From an uncultured Bacteroidota bacterium (lineage in GTDB: Bacteria; Bacteroidota; Bacteroidia; Chitinophagales; LD1): a stretch of DNA of 39,257 bases. The notes under the pieces were generated by a model. It was not told where the DNA came from. It saw only the letters and a list, made by a program, of their open reading frames with translations, and did no database searches. This document shows, piece by piece, positions 32,639-39,257 of the stretch (its first letter is position 1; each line of letters opens with the position of its first letter). The position numbers and the translations under genes were made by a program. The stretch is from the NCBI GenBank assembly GCA_903919075.1, contig CAIXGR010000027.1, forward strand, positions 1 through 39,257, read 5' to 3'.

Positions 32639-32663
32639 AACAAGCTTCTACAATAATTAAAAT

Positions 32664-32706
32664 AAAAAGCGCTGCCAAATTCAACGGGCGGCGCTTTTTA
32701 TTTTTT
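32664..32706 (+). terminator. Intrinsic terminator of the fad operon
   Basis: A GC-rich stem with arms AAAAAGCGCTGCC (32664-32676) and GGCGGCGCTTTTT (32687-32699), one G-T pair, is followed by a T-run. It lies 25 nt after the acyl-CoA dehydrogenase stop. The symmetric A and T tracts could make it work on both strands. Confidence 0.88.
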
Positions 32707-32746
32707 GTTGTATCTTCTGTTTTTTGAATTTAATATTACGGCCTTT

Positions 32747-32881
32747 GAGAATTTTCCGCTAAGAAATTCATGTAATGCAGCGTTAAAAAATGGATGCTGT
32801 TTGAGCTTGCTTCAATGTTATTGGCGTTGGCGAGTTCATCCATTTTAGCGAAATGAAATGAATTTCAGCTTAAAATCCTCA
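32747..32881. repeat. Long imperfect palindromic element A (REP-like)
   Basis: The left arm 32747-32796 and right arm 32838-32881 are imperfect reverse complements over about 45 nt. The tip holds GCTGTTTGAGC (32796-32806) and GGCGAGTTC (32829-32837), and the left base holds CCGCTAAGAAATT (32756-32768). The same boxes in the same order occur in element B (39022-39165), where the stem sequence is different but again self-complementary. It fills most of the 374-nt gap between the fad terminator and the next gene. Confidence 0.75.
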
Positions 32882-32897
32882 CAGCCTTGATTTTTTG

Positions 32898-32923
32898 GTT
32901 CTTTTTGATCAAGCAAAAAGAAC
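32898..32923. repeat. Perfect 10-bp inverted repeat GTTCTTTTTG / CAAAAAGAAC
   Basis: Arms 32898-32907 and 32914-32923 are exact reverse complements around a 6-nt ATCAAG loop. Similar GTTnCTTTTTG hairpins are, as I recall, abundant in intergenic regions of Bacteroidota. It directly follows element A and lies 90 nt before the next ATG; it may be part of a composite repeat unit or a weak terminator. Confidence 0.8.
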
Positions 32924-33012
32924 AATTGTCTGCTCAAGTTAACACTTCACGCATTGCCGTTTGTAAGGAAACAAAGCCCCACGCGTGCTATTTGCTATTT
33001 TTACTGGCTTTT

Positions 33013-33678
33013 ATGAACTCGAAAACCGCATTAATTATAGGCGCTACCGGATTAACCGGTGCCGAATGTTTGCGCCTGTTATTGCAATCCGATAATTACA
33101 ATAAAGTAATTGCGCTTGTAAGAAAACCACTTGAAATTAGCCATCCTAAGCTGTTACCTCTAGTAGTTGATTTCGAAAACCTCGAACAATATGCCCCGCA
33201 AATAAAAGCCGACGACATTTACTGTGCTATTGGCACCACCATCGCCAAAGCTGGCAGCCAGCAGGCATTTAAAAAAGTAGATTATGAAATTCCGTTAAAG
33301 GTGGCACAATTGGCATTACAGAATGGGGCAAAAAAGTTTATTTTGGTTTCGTCAATGGGTGCAAATGCCAAGTCGGGCATTTTTTACAGCCGTGTGAAAG
33401 GAGAGTTGGAAGAAGCCATTAAAAAGCTGAACTATTTGTCGTTTATTATATTTCGCCCTTCTCTTTTACTTGGCAACAGAAAAGAAAAGCGAACCGGAGA
33501 AGCAATAGGCAGGTGGATGTCGGAAAAATTATCTTTTCTTTTTAGCGGGCCGCTTAAAAAATATAAAGGTACGCCGGTAGATGTATTGGCCAAAGCCATG
33601 CTTAAAGCTGCTATGCAGAATATTAACGGTGTTCGCATTATTGAAAATGAAGAGATATTTATTTTAGCTGAACAATAA
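33013..33678 (+). CDS. NAD(P)-binding oxidoreductase, atypical SDR (HTATIP2-like)
   Basis: From the ATG at 33013 the protein has 221 residues; the frame is open to a TTG at 32887 but that part lies in a hairpin repeat and reads as junk. The Rossmann dinucleotide motif ALIIGATGLTGAECLRLLL starts near residue 5. Other blocks are YCAIGTTIAKAGSQQAFKKVDYE, KFILVSSMGANAKS and YSRVKGELEEAI, the last two corresponding to the SDR Ser and Tyr-x-x-x-Lys region. These small epimerase-like proteins lack a confirmed substrate. It is the first gene of the run to lptC, with 4 nt to the next gene. Confidence 0.9.
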   Translation: MNSKTALIIGATGLTGAECLRLLLQSDNYNKVIALVRKPLEISHPKLLPLVVDFENLEQYAPQIKADDIYCAIGTTIAKAGSQQAFKKVDYEIPLKVAQLALQNGAKKFILVSSMGANAKSGIFYSRVKGELEEAIKKLNYLSFIIFRPSLLLGNRKEKRTGEAIGRWMSEKLSFLFSGPLKKYKGTPVDVLAKAMLKAAMQNINGVRIIENEEIFILAEQ

Positions 33679-33682
33679 ATAA

Positions 33683-36316
33683 ATGACAACAAGGGTATTT
33701 TTCTTTCTCTCTTTTTTGGCTTTGCACTTTGCTATAGTTGCTCAGGATAGCAGCAATATCCTAAAAGTGAAACATCATTTATTGCAGCGCAACCCCGACG
33801 AGCTTCAGGAGGTGGCAGACTCTTTTCGCATACTACACTTGGTAATTGGCGGCAATATATATCAAACCGAAAAGCATCTTAATTATGCCTATGATGTCCC
33901 GGCAGGCCCGTTCGATTTTAAGGATGAGTTAAAATATATACAGCCCGTTTTTAATATCGGCGATATTAGCATTGCCAATCTTAAAACATCTTTTGCCAAC
34001 GACTCCAGCAATGTGTTTTCAGCACCCGATGAATTTGCTGCCGCTTTAAAATATGCCGGCATTAGTGCGTTAATGCATGCCAACCAGTCAACAGCCAATA
34101 TTAATAAGGCTGCCCTGCTACGTACCCGCGAATTACTGAATACTTTCGATATTAACCATACCGGTGCCTTTTTAAATCAGGCCGAGCGATTAGGTAATTA
34201 CCCGCTTATACTTCATAAAAAAGGATTTACCATTGCTGTATTAAATTACACCACGTTACTTAACCGGCCCGATGTATCGAAAGATTTTATAATTAATGAA
34301 TCAGAAAAGTTTTTTATAGACCATGATATGGTTTTGGCCCGCGCCAACAAACCCGATTTTATAATTGTATATTTTAACTGGGGCGATGATGCGCATGAAA
34401 CCCCATCTGCAGCTCAACATGATCTGGCACAATATGTTTTTGAAAGAGGCGCAAATATTGTGGTAGGTACCGCACCCAATAAACCCATGCCGGTTGAATA
34501 CCTTAATTTTTATTATAACGGAAAACCCGGCGAAGGAATTGTTGCTTATTCCATGGGAAATATAGTTTCAAGCAACGAGGAAATAAAAAACCGCAATGGC
34601 TATGTTTTAGATATTAATCTCAAGAAAAATGGCTTCACCGGTCAAACCAAAATTGATGATTGGGGAGTAATACCGGTTTACACTTATTACGACACTACTA
34701 CCGTAAAAAATAAAACTAAAGTGTATTCACTTCCATGCTGGGCAGTTGAAAACGGTGATGTTTTTCAGGGCATGCCTTACATTGAAAAAAGAAGAGTAAT
34801 AAATGGTGCTTACCAGGTACGCCAAATGTTAGGAAGCGCCGCCGATGAAATTCAATACAACCTTAACGAGCAAATTGTAAATAACGTAATGGAGTCGGTA
34901 CACCTTACCCGCGCACCTTTGAATAATAAATTCAGCCAATTGCGCGAAGAGGATATTAAACTAAGCCCTGCGCCACTTGCTGTTACTTACCTTCCGGGTA
35001 GCAATATTCCTTTATCGTTGGCTATGGTAACCGAGCAAACCAAGCCTAAGGAAGAACCGGTAATAGCCAATAAAACAACAAAGGCTCCGCCGGCCCCAAC
35101 GGCTTACCAGAAAGAAAAAAGCAAAGCAGCCAATGTATTTGATGCCCCGCTACCGCCTGTAGATAAGGTGAGTAACATTACCGCCATCAACACTCCGAAA
35201 GCAATAGCAGATACAGCAACCGCTTCTGTTGCAAAGCCCTTGGCAATAGCTAAAAAAGATTCTGCACTTATAATTGCAGAAACCACTCTGCCTATAAAAA
35301 GCGATGCTAAAAATATTGCGGCAGCAGCACCAGTTGCCATCCCCAAAAAAGATACTACTAATACAATAATAGCTTCACCGGTAACTTTGGCAAAAAATGA
35401 TACTAATAATAAGAAAGCTACAATTGCACCACCCATAGCCGTTATCAAAAACGACATGGCGAATGCAAATATTCCGACTCCTGTTTTACCTGTAAAAAAG
35501 GACACTACCAGCAAAACCATTGCACCACCTGTTGTTGTTGCAAAAACTGATGTAAAAAATCCACCGGTTGTTGCACCGGTAGTAGCCGAAACAAAAAAAG
35601 ACACCATCGTTAAGCACATTACACAGCCCGTAGCAGAAGCAACAAAAGATACAACTCACAAAAACATTACTCAGCCTGTTATTGCAAAAAACGATGTAAA
35701 AAACGCACCGGTAGTTCAGCCCCCGGTTACTGCAAAAAATGACATTAAGACTCCGCCTTTGGCTACAGCGAAAATCGATACAACCAATAAAAATATTTCG
35801 CGAACCGTAATTGCCCCAAAAAATGTTCCGGGAAATACTACTGCAAAACAATCTGTTGCCAACCCGAAAACAAACATCAAGAACCCAACTACTACATCAC
35901 CAGTAACTACAGCAAAAAACAACACAAAAAATACTGCCACACAACTTCCTGAACCCAGAAAACCAATAACTCCCATTAGCCCTGTTGCGCCTACTGCAAC
36001 CAATATTGCCAACTCCACTACTACCGAAATAAAGGTTAACTTAGACAAGGTAAATGGCAAACAAATTAAGTTACAGGTTGATACTTTTTACAGGATTCAG
36101 TTTTACGCCCTTGCAAAATATGTTCCTTTAGATACCAATTATTATACGCACCTAAAAGGCTACCAGGTTGTAGAAGAAAAAGGCCTTTATAAATACCTGT
36201 TAGGAAAGTACAAGAGTTATAATGAATGCTATAAATATTGGAAAGGCCAAATACAACCCCGCTACAAACAAAGTTTTATTATAAAATACATTGAAGGTAA
36301 ACGAGTAATAAAATGA
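33683..36316 (+). CDS. CapA-like (PGA_cap fold) protein with repeat linker and SPOR-like tail; active site apparently lost
   Basis: The protein has 877 residues. A signal peptide (...AIVAQ) leads to a CapA/PGA_cap metallophosphatase-like domain (about residues 48-400). The usual metal ligands are replaced: GD by GG in LVIGGNIY, NLE by NLK in IANLKTS, NNH by NQS in MHANQSTAN, HWG by NWG in VYFNWGDD, and HPH by APN in VGTAPNKPM, while the surrounding pattern and the late YSMGNIVSS remain. Residues ~450-780 are low complexity, with an irregular ~18-residue repeat of K-x-DT and PPV elements. The last ~80 residues (FYRIQFYALAKYVPL to FIIKYIEGKRV) look like the Bacteroidota SPOR-like domain, which may bind peptidoglycan. 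Its ATGA overlap with coaX shows coupling. The fold call is solid; function is unknown. Confidence 0.82.
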   Translation: MTTRVFFFLSFLALHFAIVAQDSSNILKVKHHLLQRNPDELQEVADSFRILHLVIGGNIYQTEKHLNYAYDVPAGPFDFKDELKYIQPVFNIGDISIANLKTSFANDSSNVFSAPDEFAAALKYAGISALMHANQSTANINKAALLRTRELLNTFDINHTGAFLNQAERLGNYPLILHKKGFTIAVLNYTTLLNRPDVSKDFIINESEKFFIDHDMVLARANKPDFIIVYFNWGDDAHETPSAAQHDLAQYVFERGANIVVGTAPNKPMPVEYLNFYYNGKPGEGIVAYSMGNIVSSNEEIKNRNGYVLDINLKKNGFTGQTKIDDWGVIPVYTYYDTTTVKNKTKVYSLPCWAVENGDVFQGMPYIEKRRVINGAYQVRQMLGSAADEIQYNLNEQIVNNVMESVHLTRAPLNNKFSQLREEDIKLSPAPLAVTYLPGSNIPLSLAMVTEQTKPKEEPVIANKTTKAPPAPTAYQKEKSKAANVFDAPLPPVDKVSNITAINTPKAIADTATASVAKPLAIAKKDSALIIAETTLPIKSDAKNIAAAAPVAIPKKDTTNTIIASPVTLAKNDTNNKKATIAPPIAVIKNDMANANIPTPVLPVKKDTTSKTIAPPVVVAKTDVKNPPVVAPVVAETKKDTIVKHITQPVAEATKDTTHKNITQPVIAKNDVKNAPVVQPPVTAKNDIKTPPLATAKIDTTNKNISRTVIAPKNVPGNTTAKQSVANPKTNIKNPTTTSPVTTAKNNTKNTATQLPEPRKPITPISPVAPTATNIANSTTTEIKVNLDKVNGKQIKLQVDTFYRIQFYALAKYVPLDTNYYTHLKGYQVVEEKGLYKYLLGKYKSYNECYKYWKGQIQPRYKQSFIIKYIEGKRVIK

Positions 36317-37026
36317 ACCTGGCAGTTGACATTGGCAATACCCACGTTAAAATGGGCCTCTTCGTTAAAAAAGAATTGAAAGATGTTTTTTTAAAGGATA
36401 CTGATATTGACCATATTCTCGATGCTTATAAAATTAAAAATGCCATTATTTCAAAAACCGGCTCCAATGATTTAATAGCCTATAAGCTGAAAGAAAAAAA
36501 GGTGAACACCATTTTGCTTTCGCATGATTTAAAACTACCCATCAAAATTCTTTACAAAACACCTGAAACGTTAGGTGCCGATAGAATTGCCGGTAGCGTG
36601 GCTGCACATGCTCTCTTTCCTGAAAACAATATTCTTAAAATTGATTTTGGCACCTGCATTACTTACGATTATACTGACAGTAAGGGGCATTATATAGGCG
36701 GGGCCATATCGCCGGGTTTAATGATGCGCATTAAAGCCCTGCACAATTACACCCAAAACCTGCCCCTGGTTGACCCCATGCAATTCGGCTCGGTTGATTT
36801 AACGGGTACCGACACCACTACTTCCATTTTAAGCGGTGTTATAAATGGCATAAAAGAAGAGGTATTGGGTATAATAAAAGAGTATAACTTGCGTTTTGGC
36901 ACTTTAAAGGTAATAGCCACAGGGGGCGACATGGGTTTTTTTGTTACTCTGCTCAAAAGTGAGATATTTGCCAGCCCTTATCTTGTTTTAGAGGGATTGA
37001 ACCGGATTTTAAATTTTAACATATAG
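36313..37026 (+). CDS. coaX: Type III pantothenate kinase
   Basis: The protein has 237 residues. It phosphorylates pantothenate, the first step of CoA synthesis, and needs a monovalent cation. ASKHA-fold motifs are DIGNTHVKMGLF at the N-terminus, GADRIAGSVAAH near residue 90 and DFGTCITYDY near 115, then GGAISPGLMMR and ATGGDMGFF. It is cytosolic. It overlaps the CapA-like gene by 4 nt and is 1 nt from the next gene, so it lies inside a tight operon. Confidence 0.96.
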   Translation: MNLAVDIGNTHVKMGLFVKKELKDVFLKDTDIDHILDAYKIKNAIISKTGSNDLIAYKLKEKKVNTILLSHDLKLPIKILYKTPETLGADRIAGSVAAHALFPENNILKIDFGTCITYDYTDSKGHYIGGAISPGLMMRIKALHNYTQNLPLVDPMQFGSVDLTGTDTTTSILSGVINGIKEEVLGIIKEYNLRFGTLKVIATGGDMGFFVTLLKSEIFASPYLVLEGLNRILNFNI

Positions 37027-37027
37027 A

Positions 37028-38356
37028 GTGAAAGCAAAAACAATTAATACCCTTTTTTCCGCAACTAAAACCCTGCAAGTTATTTTTGCTTTTCTTCTGG
37101 TTATCTGCTATGTTACTGCTTTCGGCCAGGCCGAAATGCCTTATTCGCATTATGGCTTAGGGTATATCAGGTCTCCGGTTTTTTCATCTAATAGCGGCAT
37201 GGGCTACCTGGAAGCTCCTTTTGCAAGCGCAGTAAATATTAATGCCGCCAATCCGGCCTCTTACGCATCGCTTACCAGAACAACTATTGAGGTAGGCTTT
37301 TTAGTTGATGGCAGTGGCATTAGTAATAAGGACTCGTCGTACCGTGCTGCTAGCGGCTCTGTTAATCATTTGGCTATAGCTTTTGTTCCCAACTCAAAAC
37401 ACAACAACTGGGCTTTAAGTATTGGCTTGCTACCCTATAGCTATGTTGATTACAACTTTGCAAAAAGCTATAGCGATTCGGCATTGGGACGGTATACTCA
37501 ATTGTATTCAGGCTCGGGTTCATTATATCAGGTATATGTGGGTGCGGCGTTTAAAATAAAGGGGCTTTCAATAGGTGCTAACTTGGGCTATGTTTTTGGC
37601 AAGTTGCAGTATCAAAAAATAGTAGCCTTTGATGATACGCTTAATAATTACGACACCCGAAATATTACTAACCTAAACGTAAAAAGCTTTACTTATAAAA
37701 TAGGCGTTCAGTATCAAAAGTTAATATATCATAATCACGATAATCCTGATACACGTAAAGATATTTACCTTTTTGCCGGTGCCGATGGCTCTGGTGGGGC
37801 AAAGATGAACGCTTCGGTTTCGAATTATTGGGACAGGTTCCATCACGATTTGAATGGCAACTTAGTGGTAATTGATACACTTCAGTCAACATTTAATCAG
37901 AAAGGAAAAATCATCTTGCCGTTCAATCTGGGCGCTGGTATTATGTTTGGTAATGAGCGCTATTGGCTGCTGGGTGCCGATTTTAAATATATGAATTGGA
38001 GCAGCTACTCAACCCCGCTTGATAACGGCGGGCTAAGCAATAGCTGGCAAATTTCATTAGGTGCCCAACTTACCCCTAAATACGATGACCGGAATTTTCT
38101 TAACCGCATACAATACAGAATAGGTGCTTATTATGGTAAAAGTGAAGTTTCGGTGCAGGGATATAACTTATCACAAGCCGGTGCTACTTTGGGTTTAGGC
38201 TTGCCGCTTAAAAACATTGCGCACATTAATATTGCCGGCGATTTCGGTTCTATCGGCGGCTCACCCGACCGTTCTGTGTTCAGCGAAAGCTTCTATCGGG
38301 TTACTTTCGGAATTGTGTTGAACGACATTTGGTTTGTTAAACGTAAATTCGATTAA
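37028..38356 (+). CDS. Outer-membrane beta-barrel protein of unknown function
   Basis: The protein has 442 residues with a GTG start one base after the coaX stop. It begins with a signal peptide (...VICYVTAFGQ) and then a pattern of alternating polar and hydrophobic residues with many Gly, Tyr and Asn. Typical segments are MPYSHYGLGYIRSPVF, VNINAANPASYASL and GLSIGANLGYVFGKLQY, resembling FadL/porin-type barrels of Bacteroidota. Its position between coaX and lptC is conserved in many Bacteroidota and hints at a role in the outer membrane or in lipid handling. No catalytic residues are visible. Its 3' end overlaps the possible upstream extension of lptC, but the likely lptC ATG lies after the stop. 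Confidence 0.88.
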   Translation: MKAKTINTLFSATKTLQVIFAFLLVICYVTAFGQAEMPYSHYGLGYIRSPVFSSNSGMGYLEAPFASAVNINAANPASYASLTRTTIEVGFLVDGSGISNKDSSYRAASGSVNHLAIAFVPNSKHNNWALSIGLLPYSYVDYNFAKSYSDSALGRYTQLYSGSGSLYQVYVGAAFKIKGLSIGANLGYVFGKLQYQKIVAFDDTLNNYDTRNITNLNVKSFTYKIGVQYQKLIYHNHDNPDTRKDIYLFAGADGSGGAKMNASVSNYWDRFHHDLNGNLVVIDTLQSTFNQKGKIILPFNLGAGIMFGNERYWLLGADFKYMNWSSYSTPLDNGGLSNSWQISLGAQLTPKYDDRNFLNRIQYRIGAYYGKSEVSVQGYNLSQAGATLGLGLPLKNIAHINIAGDFGSIGGSPDRSVFSESFYRVTFGIVLNDIWFVKRKFD

Positions 38357-38414
38357 TAGCAAGCCGAATTTCCGGTTTAGGTCTATTCAACTAAAGGCAA
38401 AAAATTCCGGGTTT

Positions 38415-38960
38415 ATGCAAAAACTACTTTTTGTCTGTTTCTTTTTATCTCTTATTCTTTCGGGCTGTAATAGCAGTATTAACGGGGTAAATTATGTTAC
38501 CACCCACGCCAATATAAATATCGAAAAAGGCAAACAGGTAGAAATTGACTATTCCGATAAAGGCGTTGTAAGAATTAAAGCTATTGCCCCTACTGCAACC
38601 CGGTTTGTTAAAGAAAAACCCTATTTTGAATTTTCGAATGGCATTAAACTTCTGTTTTATAATGCCGAACATAAAATTGAAAATACACTTACCGCAAAGT
38701 ATGCCACAGCTTACGAAAACAGCCACTCTATGACCGCCCGCGACAGCGTGGTAGTAATAAACAACAAGGGCGAACTATTAAATACCGATGAACTGATTTG
38801 GGATGAAGAGAAAAAAATTATTTACTCCAACTCCTTTGTAAAAATCACCACCGCCGACGAAATAATATACGGCAACGGAATGACCGCCAACGAAAACTTT
38901 ACCGATTACGTAATCAAAAACATTACCGGTAAAATAAAAGTAAAAAGCAACGAGTTATAG
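38415..38960 (+). CDS. lptC: LPS export periplasmic protein LptC, lipoprotein form
   Basis: From the ATG at 38415 (MQKLLFVCFFLSLILSGC) the protein has 181 residues; the frame is open to 38334 but the extension has no signal-like start. It has a lipobox LILSGC, so the Bacteroidota protein is probably lipidated, in contrast to the membrane-helix form of E. coli. The LptC-type beta-jellyroll strands include GIKLLFYNAEHKIENTLTAK, ELLNTDELIWDEEKKIIYS and NFTDYVIKNITGKIKV. It passes LPS from the LptBFG extractor to LptA. It ends the coaX operon. Confidence 0.92.
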   Translation: MQKLLFVCFFLSLILSGCNSSINGVNYVTTHANINIEKGKQVEIDYSDKGVVRIKAIAPTATRFVKEKPYFEFSNGIKLLFYNAEHKIENTLTAKYATAYENSHSMTARDSVVVINNKGELLNTDELIWDEEKKIIYSNSFVKITTADEIIYGNGMTANENFTDYVIKNITGKIKVKSNEL

Positions 38961-39021
38961 TTACTCCCCTGCAATCAGCAAGCCAATATTTAGCTGTTTT
39001 TTGTTTTTTAAAATGCCCTTC

Positions 39022-39165
39022 ATGAAAATGCCGTTAAGAAATTTTCTCGTAGCAGAGCAAGAGAACAAAACGCTGTTCGAGCACAACCAACTCTATAAAC
39101 TTAATACTAAGTGAAAGGCGAGTTCGTTTTGTTGCGCGTAGGGAGAAAATTTTAGGCCTTTTTCA
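39022..39165. repeat. Long imperfect palindromic element B (REP-like)
   Basis: The left arm 39022-39071 and right arm 39126-39165 are imperfect reverse complements, including AACAAAACG against CGTTTTGTT and AAATTTTCTC against GAGAAAATTT. The boxes CCGTTAAGAAATT (39031), GCTGTTCGAGC (39072) and GGCGAGTTC (39117) match element A at 32747-32881 in order and position. It occupies the gap after lptC; the 60 nt between the lptC stop and the left arm show nothing else. Confidence 0.75.
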
Positions 39166-39170
39166 TCCAG

Positions 39171-39257
39171 TGTCTCGTCCCAGAAAAAGTTGACTATAAA
39201 AAGTCAAGATTATGGAGAGCAAAAGGATTAAGGGCAATAATACTTTTCCCGGAAAGA
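39171..39257 (+). mobile_element. Possible insertion-sequence left end, truncated by the window
   Basis: TGTCTCGTCCCAGAAAAAGT (39171-39190) starts with TG and resembles the terminal inverted repeats of IS3-family (IS150-group) elements. At 39212 an ATG opens a frame (MESKRIKGNNTFPGK) that runs to the window end, where an OrfA transposase would start. The 3' end and the transposase proper are outside the window, so this remains tentative. Confidence 0.35.

Follow-up and report, generated by a model that had tools for sequence, protein, structure and literature searches.

Repetitive extragenic palindromic (REP) sequences and REPINs, which are associated with RAYT (TnpA-REP) transposases, are short, dispersed, intergenic, hairpin-forming and non-autonomous repeats that are themselves targeted by insertion sequences (ISs). 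Integron attC sites act as single strands that fold with extrahelical bases on one arm, have a variable tip and conserve structure over sequence. The parts of PMC6006769 that deal with IS200/IS605 elements (e.g., IS608 and ISDra2) describe subterminal hairpins recognised as single strands and a coupling to the lagging-strand template that gives an orientation bias, and put REPs at 21–65 nt. In the relevant section of PMC3733652, CGTC-tagged REPs are palindromes of 20–40 bp, reported for Bacteroidetes among others, whose flanks hold no dedicated transposase. ISs that target REPs have a precedent in the IS3 family (IS1397, ISKpn1 and ISPsy8) and in the IS110 family, with 5/5 ISPsy8 copies lying in REPs according to the pertinent passage of PMC1525189. 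Here, we analysed a window of 39,257 nucleotides (the whole stretch of DNA under study; contig CAIXGR010000027.1, assembly GCA_903919075.1) from an uncultured Bacteroidota bacterium of the Chitinophagales, in which a sequence-only reading had noted two intergenic hairpin elements, A and B. These are two of about ten genomic copies of one element.

The element has two parts: a hairpin (H, ~110–180 nt), within which three motifs are conserved, and behind it a tail (T) built of two interlocked stems. It shows the REP trait of many dispersed intergenic hairpin copies (10 in the genome of the window and 40, counted by the tip, in the distant genome G307), and differs from REPs in that H is several times longer and carries its motifs and tail. 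Like the CGTC-tagged REPs, it is a palindromic repeat without a flanking dedicated transposase; unlike them, it spans 110–180 nt, with bulged boxes and a tail in place of a CGTC tag and 20–40 bp. Compared with IS200/IS605 ends, no transposase gene lies inside it and no defined guide or cleavage tetranucleotides were found. It shares with attC sites the one-arm extrahelical bases, the conservation of structure over sequence and the variable tip, and departs from them in its box sequences and in lying mostly outside cassette arrays. At roughly even odds (a probability of about 0.48), we consider A and B to be copies of a non-autonomous mobile DNA repeat (H plus T) that folds as a single strand during replication and is moved by an enzyme acting in trans.

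All of the boxes and stems described for A and B by the sequence-only reading were found in place, including stems that differ between the two copies and yet pair with themselves (AAAATGGATG with CATCCATTTT and AACAAAACG with CGTTTTGTT, both 100% complementary). A covariance model built on six copies picked out 10 places (E ≤ 2.5e-8) in this genome of 3.53 Mb, along with one truncated copy (E 0.07) and an opposite-strand echo of the copy on contig C41 (E 0.099). The two-box pattern is present at five places in the genome and, read backwards, at none. Since the single box GCTGTTTGAGC, at ≤2 mismatches, turned up no more often in the window than in shuffled sequence (11 vs. 10.2), the evidence that the family is real lies in the ordered combination of boxes and in the other copies. 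By RNA folding, A and B were 5.1 and 2.5 standard deviations better than shuffles, respectively (2.4 and 1.6 for the minus strands). The features of the two copies are as follows, the limits of each hairpin being those of the covariance model:

32746..32880, + strand: element A, hairpin H (covariance model 89 bits; stems and boxes located)
32756-32768, + strand: element A, box I, CCGCTAAGAAATT
32787-32796 pairing with 32837-32846, + strand: element A, inner stem
32796-32806 and 32829-32837, + strand: element A, tip boxes GCTGTTTGAGC and GGCGAGTTC
32886..32923, + strand: element A, tail T, with two interlocked stems S1 and S2
32886-32891 with 32908-32913, + strand: element A, tail stem S1, CTTGAT with ATCAAG
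32898-32907 with 32914-32923, + strand: element A, tail stem S2, GTTCTTTTTG with CAAAAAGAAC (S2 pairing tested over 68 distinct tails)
39021..39166, + strand: element B, hairpin H (covariance model 172 bits; stems and boxes located)
39031-39043, + strand: element B, box I, CCGTTAAGAAATT
39039-39048 with 39143-39152, + strand: element B, stem AAATTTTCTC
39064-39072 with 39125-39133, + strand: element B, inner stem
39072-39082 and 39117-39125, + strand: element B, tip boxes
39171..39257, + strand: left end, TGTCTCGTCCCAG..., of a putative IS3-like insertion sequence, cut by the contig end and parting the hairpin of B from its tail

Across the family, H starts and finishes in a base stem. Box I reads 5'-(C/G)CGTTAAGAAA and faces TTTTTAGG(C); many copies have another box resembling it. 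The tip reads CTGTTTGAGC...GCGAGTT. As pairs, the boxes form a 2-nt bulge, a short pairing and then another small bulge, situated on the same (5') arm in most subfamilies; in locus L105 (376–396 region) the bulged box lies on the 3' arm, as if the stem had been exchanged relative to the tip. The loop common to A and B in the sequence-only reading holds for the tip boxes, which are conserved, and fails for the sequence between them, which is the most variable part of the element (22–75 nt in the bacterial family of the window). The tip loop consists in many lineages of just one GNA-type turn; the tip is then TTTGAGCGNAGCGAGTTT, a mirror sequence with GCGNAGC, a motif known to form a very stable DNA mini-hairpin.

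In the tail, S1 pairs CTTGAN with N'TCAAG, and the 5' strand of S2 lies within the S1 loop with its 3' strand after S1. In 45 of 68 distinct tails, all of which had been selected for S1, S2 was at least 8 bp long, against a mean of 3.7 (at most 9) with the tails swapped. Given that the linker between S1 and S2 is 0 nt in 53/68 tails, the two stems are more likely alternatives than parts of a full pseudoknot. For several family-wide counts (the 119-copy, 65-copy, 29- and 62-representative, 21-pair, and other-lineage sets), copies were chosen by the tip motif and at least 7/8 paired inner-stem positions, so that inner-stem pairing is partly by construction. By a strict script, T follows H in 48 of 65 copies; inspection by eye of the other 17 showed three split by an IS, five with an insert before T, and nine in which T is mismatched or holds an insert. 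In loci L280, L285, L301, L322 and L324, a related insert of some tens of nucleotides occupies the H/T junction, the same junction used by the IS (see below).

The arms of the hairpin covary. Among 48 distinct aligned copies, 30 of the 35 model pairs had changed on both sides, and 90.7% of cells were paired, compared to 64.2% in shuffles (0/500 as high) and ≤48% with partners slid, in an alignment that was fitted to the structure and includes the opposite-strand echo. Helix 4, the inner box-II helix, varies from one subfamily to the next and for that reason pairs in only 57% of cells. In 29 subfamily representatives (<70% alike), 1158 of 1369 aligned arm positions were complementary, with the arms aligned for best complementarity, no shuffle control, and L043, L181, L189 and L199 among the doubtful representatives. 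Quasi-palindrome correction can create paired changes in one event; it would not account for the kept bulges. Within genomes, the tip loops change far more quickly than the arms: in 21 pairs, loops are 72.6% alike (56.6% at random) and arms 95.1% alike. The family is real and structural, with covarying arms and a conserved set of bulges and tip. Of the two results that would have told against the sequence-only reading, a lack of further copies and uncompensated stem changes, neither was seen.

The copies are also dispersed to unrelated sites. Despite arms that are 95.1% identical, the upstream flanks of the same 21 pairs were no more alike than random sequence (0.593 vs. 0.605), and most loci are separate insertions, as only 3 pairs among the 61 located loci have at least two neighbouring genes in common (16 pairs have at least one). 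In relatives, the acyl-CoA dehydrogenase gene upstream of A aligns, and in those compared the downstream gene matches other contigs, which places A near a synteny break; an empty site of A was not obtained from these relatives. Directly after the acyl-CoA dehydrogenase gene (window 32640–32704) there is a separate 18-bp inverted repeat, 94% complementary, which is probably the ordinary terminator of that gene.

With respect to neighbouring genes, the orientation of the element is random, and the position just 3' of an operon noted for A and B is not general: in 119 copies, the left neighbour ran with the element in 54 and against it in 60 (five had no near gene), and the right neighbour in 56 and 56. 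An mRNA 3' element was rejected on the same count. With respect to replication, approximated by gene-corrected third-position GC skew in regions of up to 20 kb, orientation is not random. A first pooled look at all lineages found 35 of 44 regions aligned with skew, most strongly in the family of the window. In that family, 26/29 regions of an exploratory set followed skew after a refined correction, as did 34/40 in a confirmatory set (31/32 at |skew signal| ≥ 0.03 and 29/29 at ≥ 0.06). The 40 confirmatory regions are part of the remaining listed model copies, their strands were taken from the model, and the thresholds of 0, 0.03 and 0.06 are reported together. Both sets combined, drawn from 18 genomes, gave 60/69 regions, 54/57 at 0.03 and 51/53 at 0.06, and in the window's genome 6/6 regions follow skew. 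The orientation to skew in this family is established, and by this proxy the element has the orientation bias to replication seen in IS200/IS605-type elements. Random orientation to genes together with strong bias to GC skew points to a role as DNA rather than RNA, the simplest such role being that of a substrate, moved in trans, for a single-strand process at the fork.

Two rivals bear on this evidence and remain the main ones. The first is a host element polar to replication, such as a priming or restart site or a fork-related or segregation signal, in which wrong-way copies are lost by selection, so that the bias would stem from function and not from how copies insert. The near-complete orientation bias would fit such an element, as would the keeping of arms and boxes while loops drift, as if every copy were under selection; however, copy number ranges from 0 to 11 across the 30 genomes of the window's family (stricter filters), arms 95% identical occur at unrelated sites, and no bias was detected in several other lineages, and we regard this explanation as unlikely. 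The second, a transcribed structured RNA (a small RNA or mRNA element) with H as an RNA hairpin and T as a pseudoknot or switch, draws on the covariation, the interlocked stems of T, the better folding of the window strand and the excess of G-T over A-C mismatches on it. We consider it quite unlikely, since orientation is random to genes and not to GC skew, and a full pseudoknot is sterically doubtful with S1 and S2 lacking a linker. In Rfam scans, moreover, nothing in the window reached gathering score and nothing in 32700–33000 reached E ≤ 5, and four related loci had sub-threshold matches only (the Fst antitoxin model reached 29.9 vs. 72 bits over the element tail in L173).

Several findings weigh against a mobile repeat moved at the fork. 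GC skew is a proxy for replication only. Orientation tests in other lineages, which used small samples and short flanks and dropped loci with elements on both strands, showed no significant bias in G307 (21 loci, p 0.69), Marinilabiliales (11 loci, p 0.32), Lewinella/Saprospiraceae (4 loci, p 0.63), the genome G131 (3 loci, p 0.49) or a mixed set (15 loci, p 0.66), and Flavobacteria leaned the opposite way (1 vs. 5; 6 loci, p 0.12); G395/G328 gave 5/5 loci (p 0.06). We found no mobilising gene, and saw no excised form and no genuine empty site; in the window's family no target duplication was recognised by eye, the ends not being exactly defined. Lastly, because G-T mismatches exceed A-C on the window strand (39 vs. 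18 in 62 representatives, 18 vs. 9 in 29), the data suggest that this strand folds and not its complement, contrary to a version of the mechanism based on the lagging-strand template.

The sequence-only reading had proposed a REP-type repeat moved by a RAYT. Its case for selection on structure and many copies is strongly supported, and the likeness to REPs stands in a general sense (dispersed, intergenic hairpins targeted by an IS). Its link to RAYT did not survive at the level of adjacency: none of 14 fetched RAYT-like Y1 loci (part of the Y1 matches listed) holds the tip, box I or the two-stem tail. The REP-like lifestyle favours a RAYT, as does the presence of Y1 genes in 19/19 element-bearing genomes, and single-stranded DNA transposases of this superfamily work on the lagging-strand template, as described in the relevant parts of PMC6006769. 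However, Y1 genes are also present in 29/41 other genomes, including 9/11 element-free genomes of the same family, and thus separate element-bearing genomes poorly, and no constant GT[AG]G foot was seen by eye in the printed copies. Among the Y1 matches listed, none shares a contig with a model match in G000, G006, G010, G011, G012, G013 or G017; in G023 and G025, some Y1 genes are on the element-bearing contig, at least 14 kb away. One of the 14 loci has GTGG-tagged hairpins of its own; in L357 (G015 C9) these lie near the RAYT-like gene in inverted orientation and are unrelated to H-T. Taken together, we judge movement by a RAYT decidedly unlikely, with the reservation that a Y1 enzyme, or one of the tyrosine recombinase class, could act in trans from afar.

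Other candidates were set aside. A recurring neighbouring protein (~315 aa, with a carboxypeptidase-regulatory-like domain) is flanked on both sides by same-strand elements in G010 and G014 (L283:17626–18834, L301:8174–9121) and was rejected as a partner by its presence pattern: it has paralogues elsewhere without elements, is missing from seven element-bearing genomes of the genus (G000, G006, G008, G011, G012, G013 and G015), and occurs four times in the element-free G009. A peptide reading of the tip (LFE..SEF) was rejected by eye, as the loop has stops and box I and the tip are not kept in one frame. Loop mutation of the A-to-N kind (diversity-generating retroelement-like) showed no clear A bias by eye.

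The element is used as a target by an IS. In the window, B is followed by 4 nt and then by the IS end, which also ends the contig. Six left ends of this IS were located in the genome, and 6/6 lie 3–4 nt past a hairpin foot, that is, at the H/T junction; as far as left ends show, the IS uses only this junction. Three contigs begin or end in the IS right end with a tail T immediately adjoining; these right ends were picked up through their contact with tails, and the count covers only them. With left ends at the hairpin foot and right ends abutting tails, H and T are the two halves of one target. This target use is established for the one IS, which is probably IS3-like, a family assignment drawn from its TGT...ACA ends only; a 33-aa piece of its first open reading frame had no Pfam match. 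IS1397, ISKpn1 and ISPsy8 are alike as IS3-family elements inserted in REPs, what differs here is the hairpin family, at whose foot 6/6 left ends stand.

In G307, the hairpin is embedded in a longer repeat with inverted ends (GGCTCTATGTCGAA.../...GAATAGAGCC; ends GGCTCTATG...), and these ends may resemble ISL3-type ends. Both ends could be recognised in 20 of the 29 loci examined there; at the 7-of-8 level, 8-bp target duplications were present in 16 of the 20, against a mean of 1.9 (at most 6) with swapped flanks. The lack of orientation bias in this genome is as expected of that mode of insertion. Loci L218–L240 of G307 are modular variants of the carrier: the left module comes in two versions, and inserts of two kinds occur within the tail. 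These inverted ends and duplications raise the prospect that the hairpin is cargo or a remnant of classical (DDE) transposons, spread in repeats like miniature inverted-repeat transposable elements. For the element at large we find this very unlikely: no inverted ends or target duplications of that kind were seen by eye in the window's family, its strong orientation bias is unexpected of DDE insertion, and the core is found elsewhere without those ends.

Isolated copies are the usual arrangement, with array-like exceptions in G131 and locus L165. In G131 (C2:304000–330000; L211 and L212), six same-strand elements lie within 20 kb, and the genes in the intervals were named by eye as toxin-antitoxin-like, Fic-like and ATPase-like; a 2.06-kb unit there, reaching from an element start to an element end, is duplicated, and some elements are preceded by 51-bp tandem repeats. 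L165:1–3300 (Flavobacterium sp. HSC-61S13) carries five elements on one strand, four of which are ~325–345 nt apart; they lie downstream of a susCD-like pair, and the last two enclose a small toxin-antitoxin-like pair of genes. The G131 arrays, their gene content and duplicated unit, together with bulges that are all on one arm of the folded strand, recall an attC-like recombination site of an integron-like cassette system. Such a site is highly improbable here, as 0/10 genomes had an integron integrase over the TIGR02249 cut-off and most copies stand alone between ordinary genes; an integron as the general explanation was rejected for want of such an integrase. Weaker tyrosine-recombinase matches occurred in all 10 tested genomes and in all 14 controls.

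Model matches were found in 19 of 60 related genomes (the window's included), all within the 30 genomes of the same family, and under stricter filters there was none in the 30 genomes of other families. Of 47 named matches, 33 passed the inner-stem filter, all labelled Bacteroidota (Flavobacterium, Flavobacteriaceae, Marinilabiliaceae, Alkaliflexus, Geofilum, Bacteroidales, Lewinella, Saprospiraceae, Chitinophagales and unnamed Bacteroidota), and 14 failed, five of these being from other phyla. Relatives of the element are thus present in several orders of Bacteroidota. The strict tip pattern occurred in 11/395 genomes of the class, one genome having 39 matches. Six 15-base tip strings had no occurrence in the open-access papers searched; looser strings do occur in 94 papers, among those listed by the 10-mer alone. 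This is apparently a large, undescribed family of scattered Bacteroidota repeats.

Were the element a mobile repeat of the kind proposed, one strand would fold while single-stranded in replication, and an enzyme encoded elsewhere in the genome would recognise the fold through the bulged boxes (CC[GT]TAA[G]AAA facing TTTTTAGG) and the tip (TTTGAG..GCGAG). That enzyme would then move or copy the element via the single-stranded DNA of one fork arm, and movement through one arm would fix the orientation. The element strand shown in the window lies on the C-rich side. By convention the G-rich strand is the leading strand, and if this applies here, the complement of the window strand would be the lagging-strand template. 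The IS3-like element may exploit the H/T junction as a safe landing site, and the hairpin appears, in one distant lineage or more, to travel instead as cargo of a transposon-like repeat with inverted ends. A bolder form of the proposal, possible with the odds against it, is a Bacteroidota-specific mobility or recombination system for single-stranded DNA, in which H-T is the folded substrate of an enzyme acting at the fork, like an attC site or an IS608 end and yet neither, and the tip loop is an insert that is either tolerated or actively diversified.

If the mobile-repeat proposal is true, a widespread repeat class of a major phylum has gone without a name until now, and its near one-way orientation in one family makes both the hidden enzyme and the replication-coupled route directly testable. 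It would also account for the recurrent hairpins in Bacteroidota intergenic regions, and for the small spurious open reading frames that run through them, and would provide an example of an insertion sequence landing solely in another repeat.

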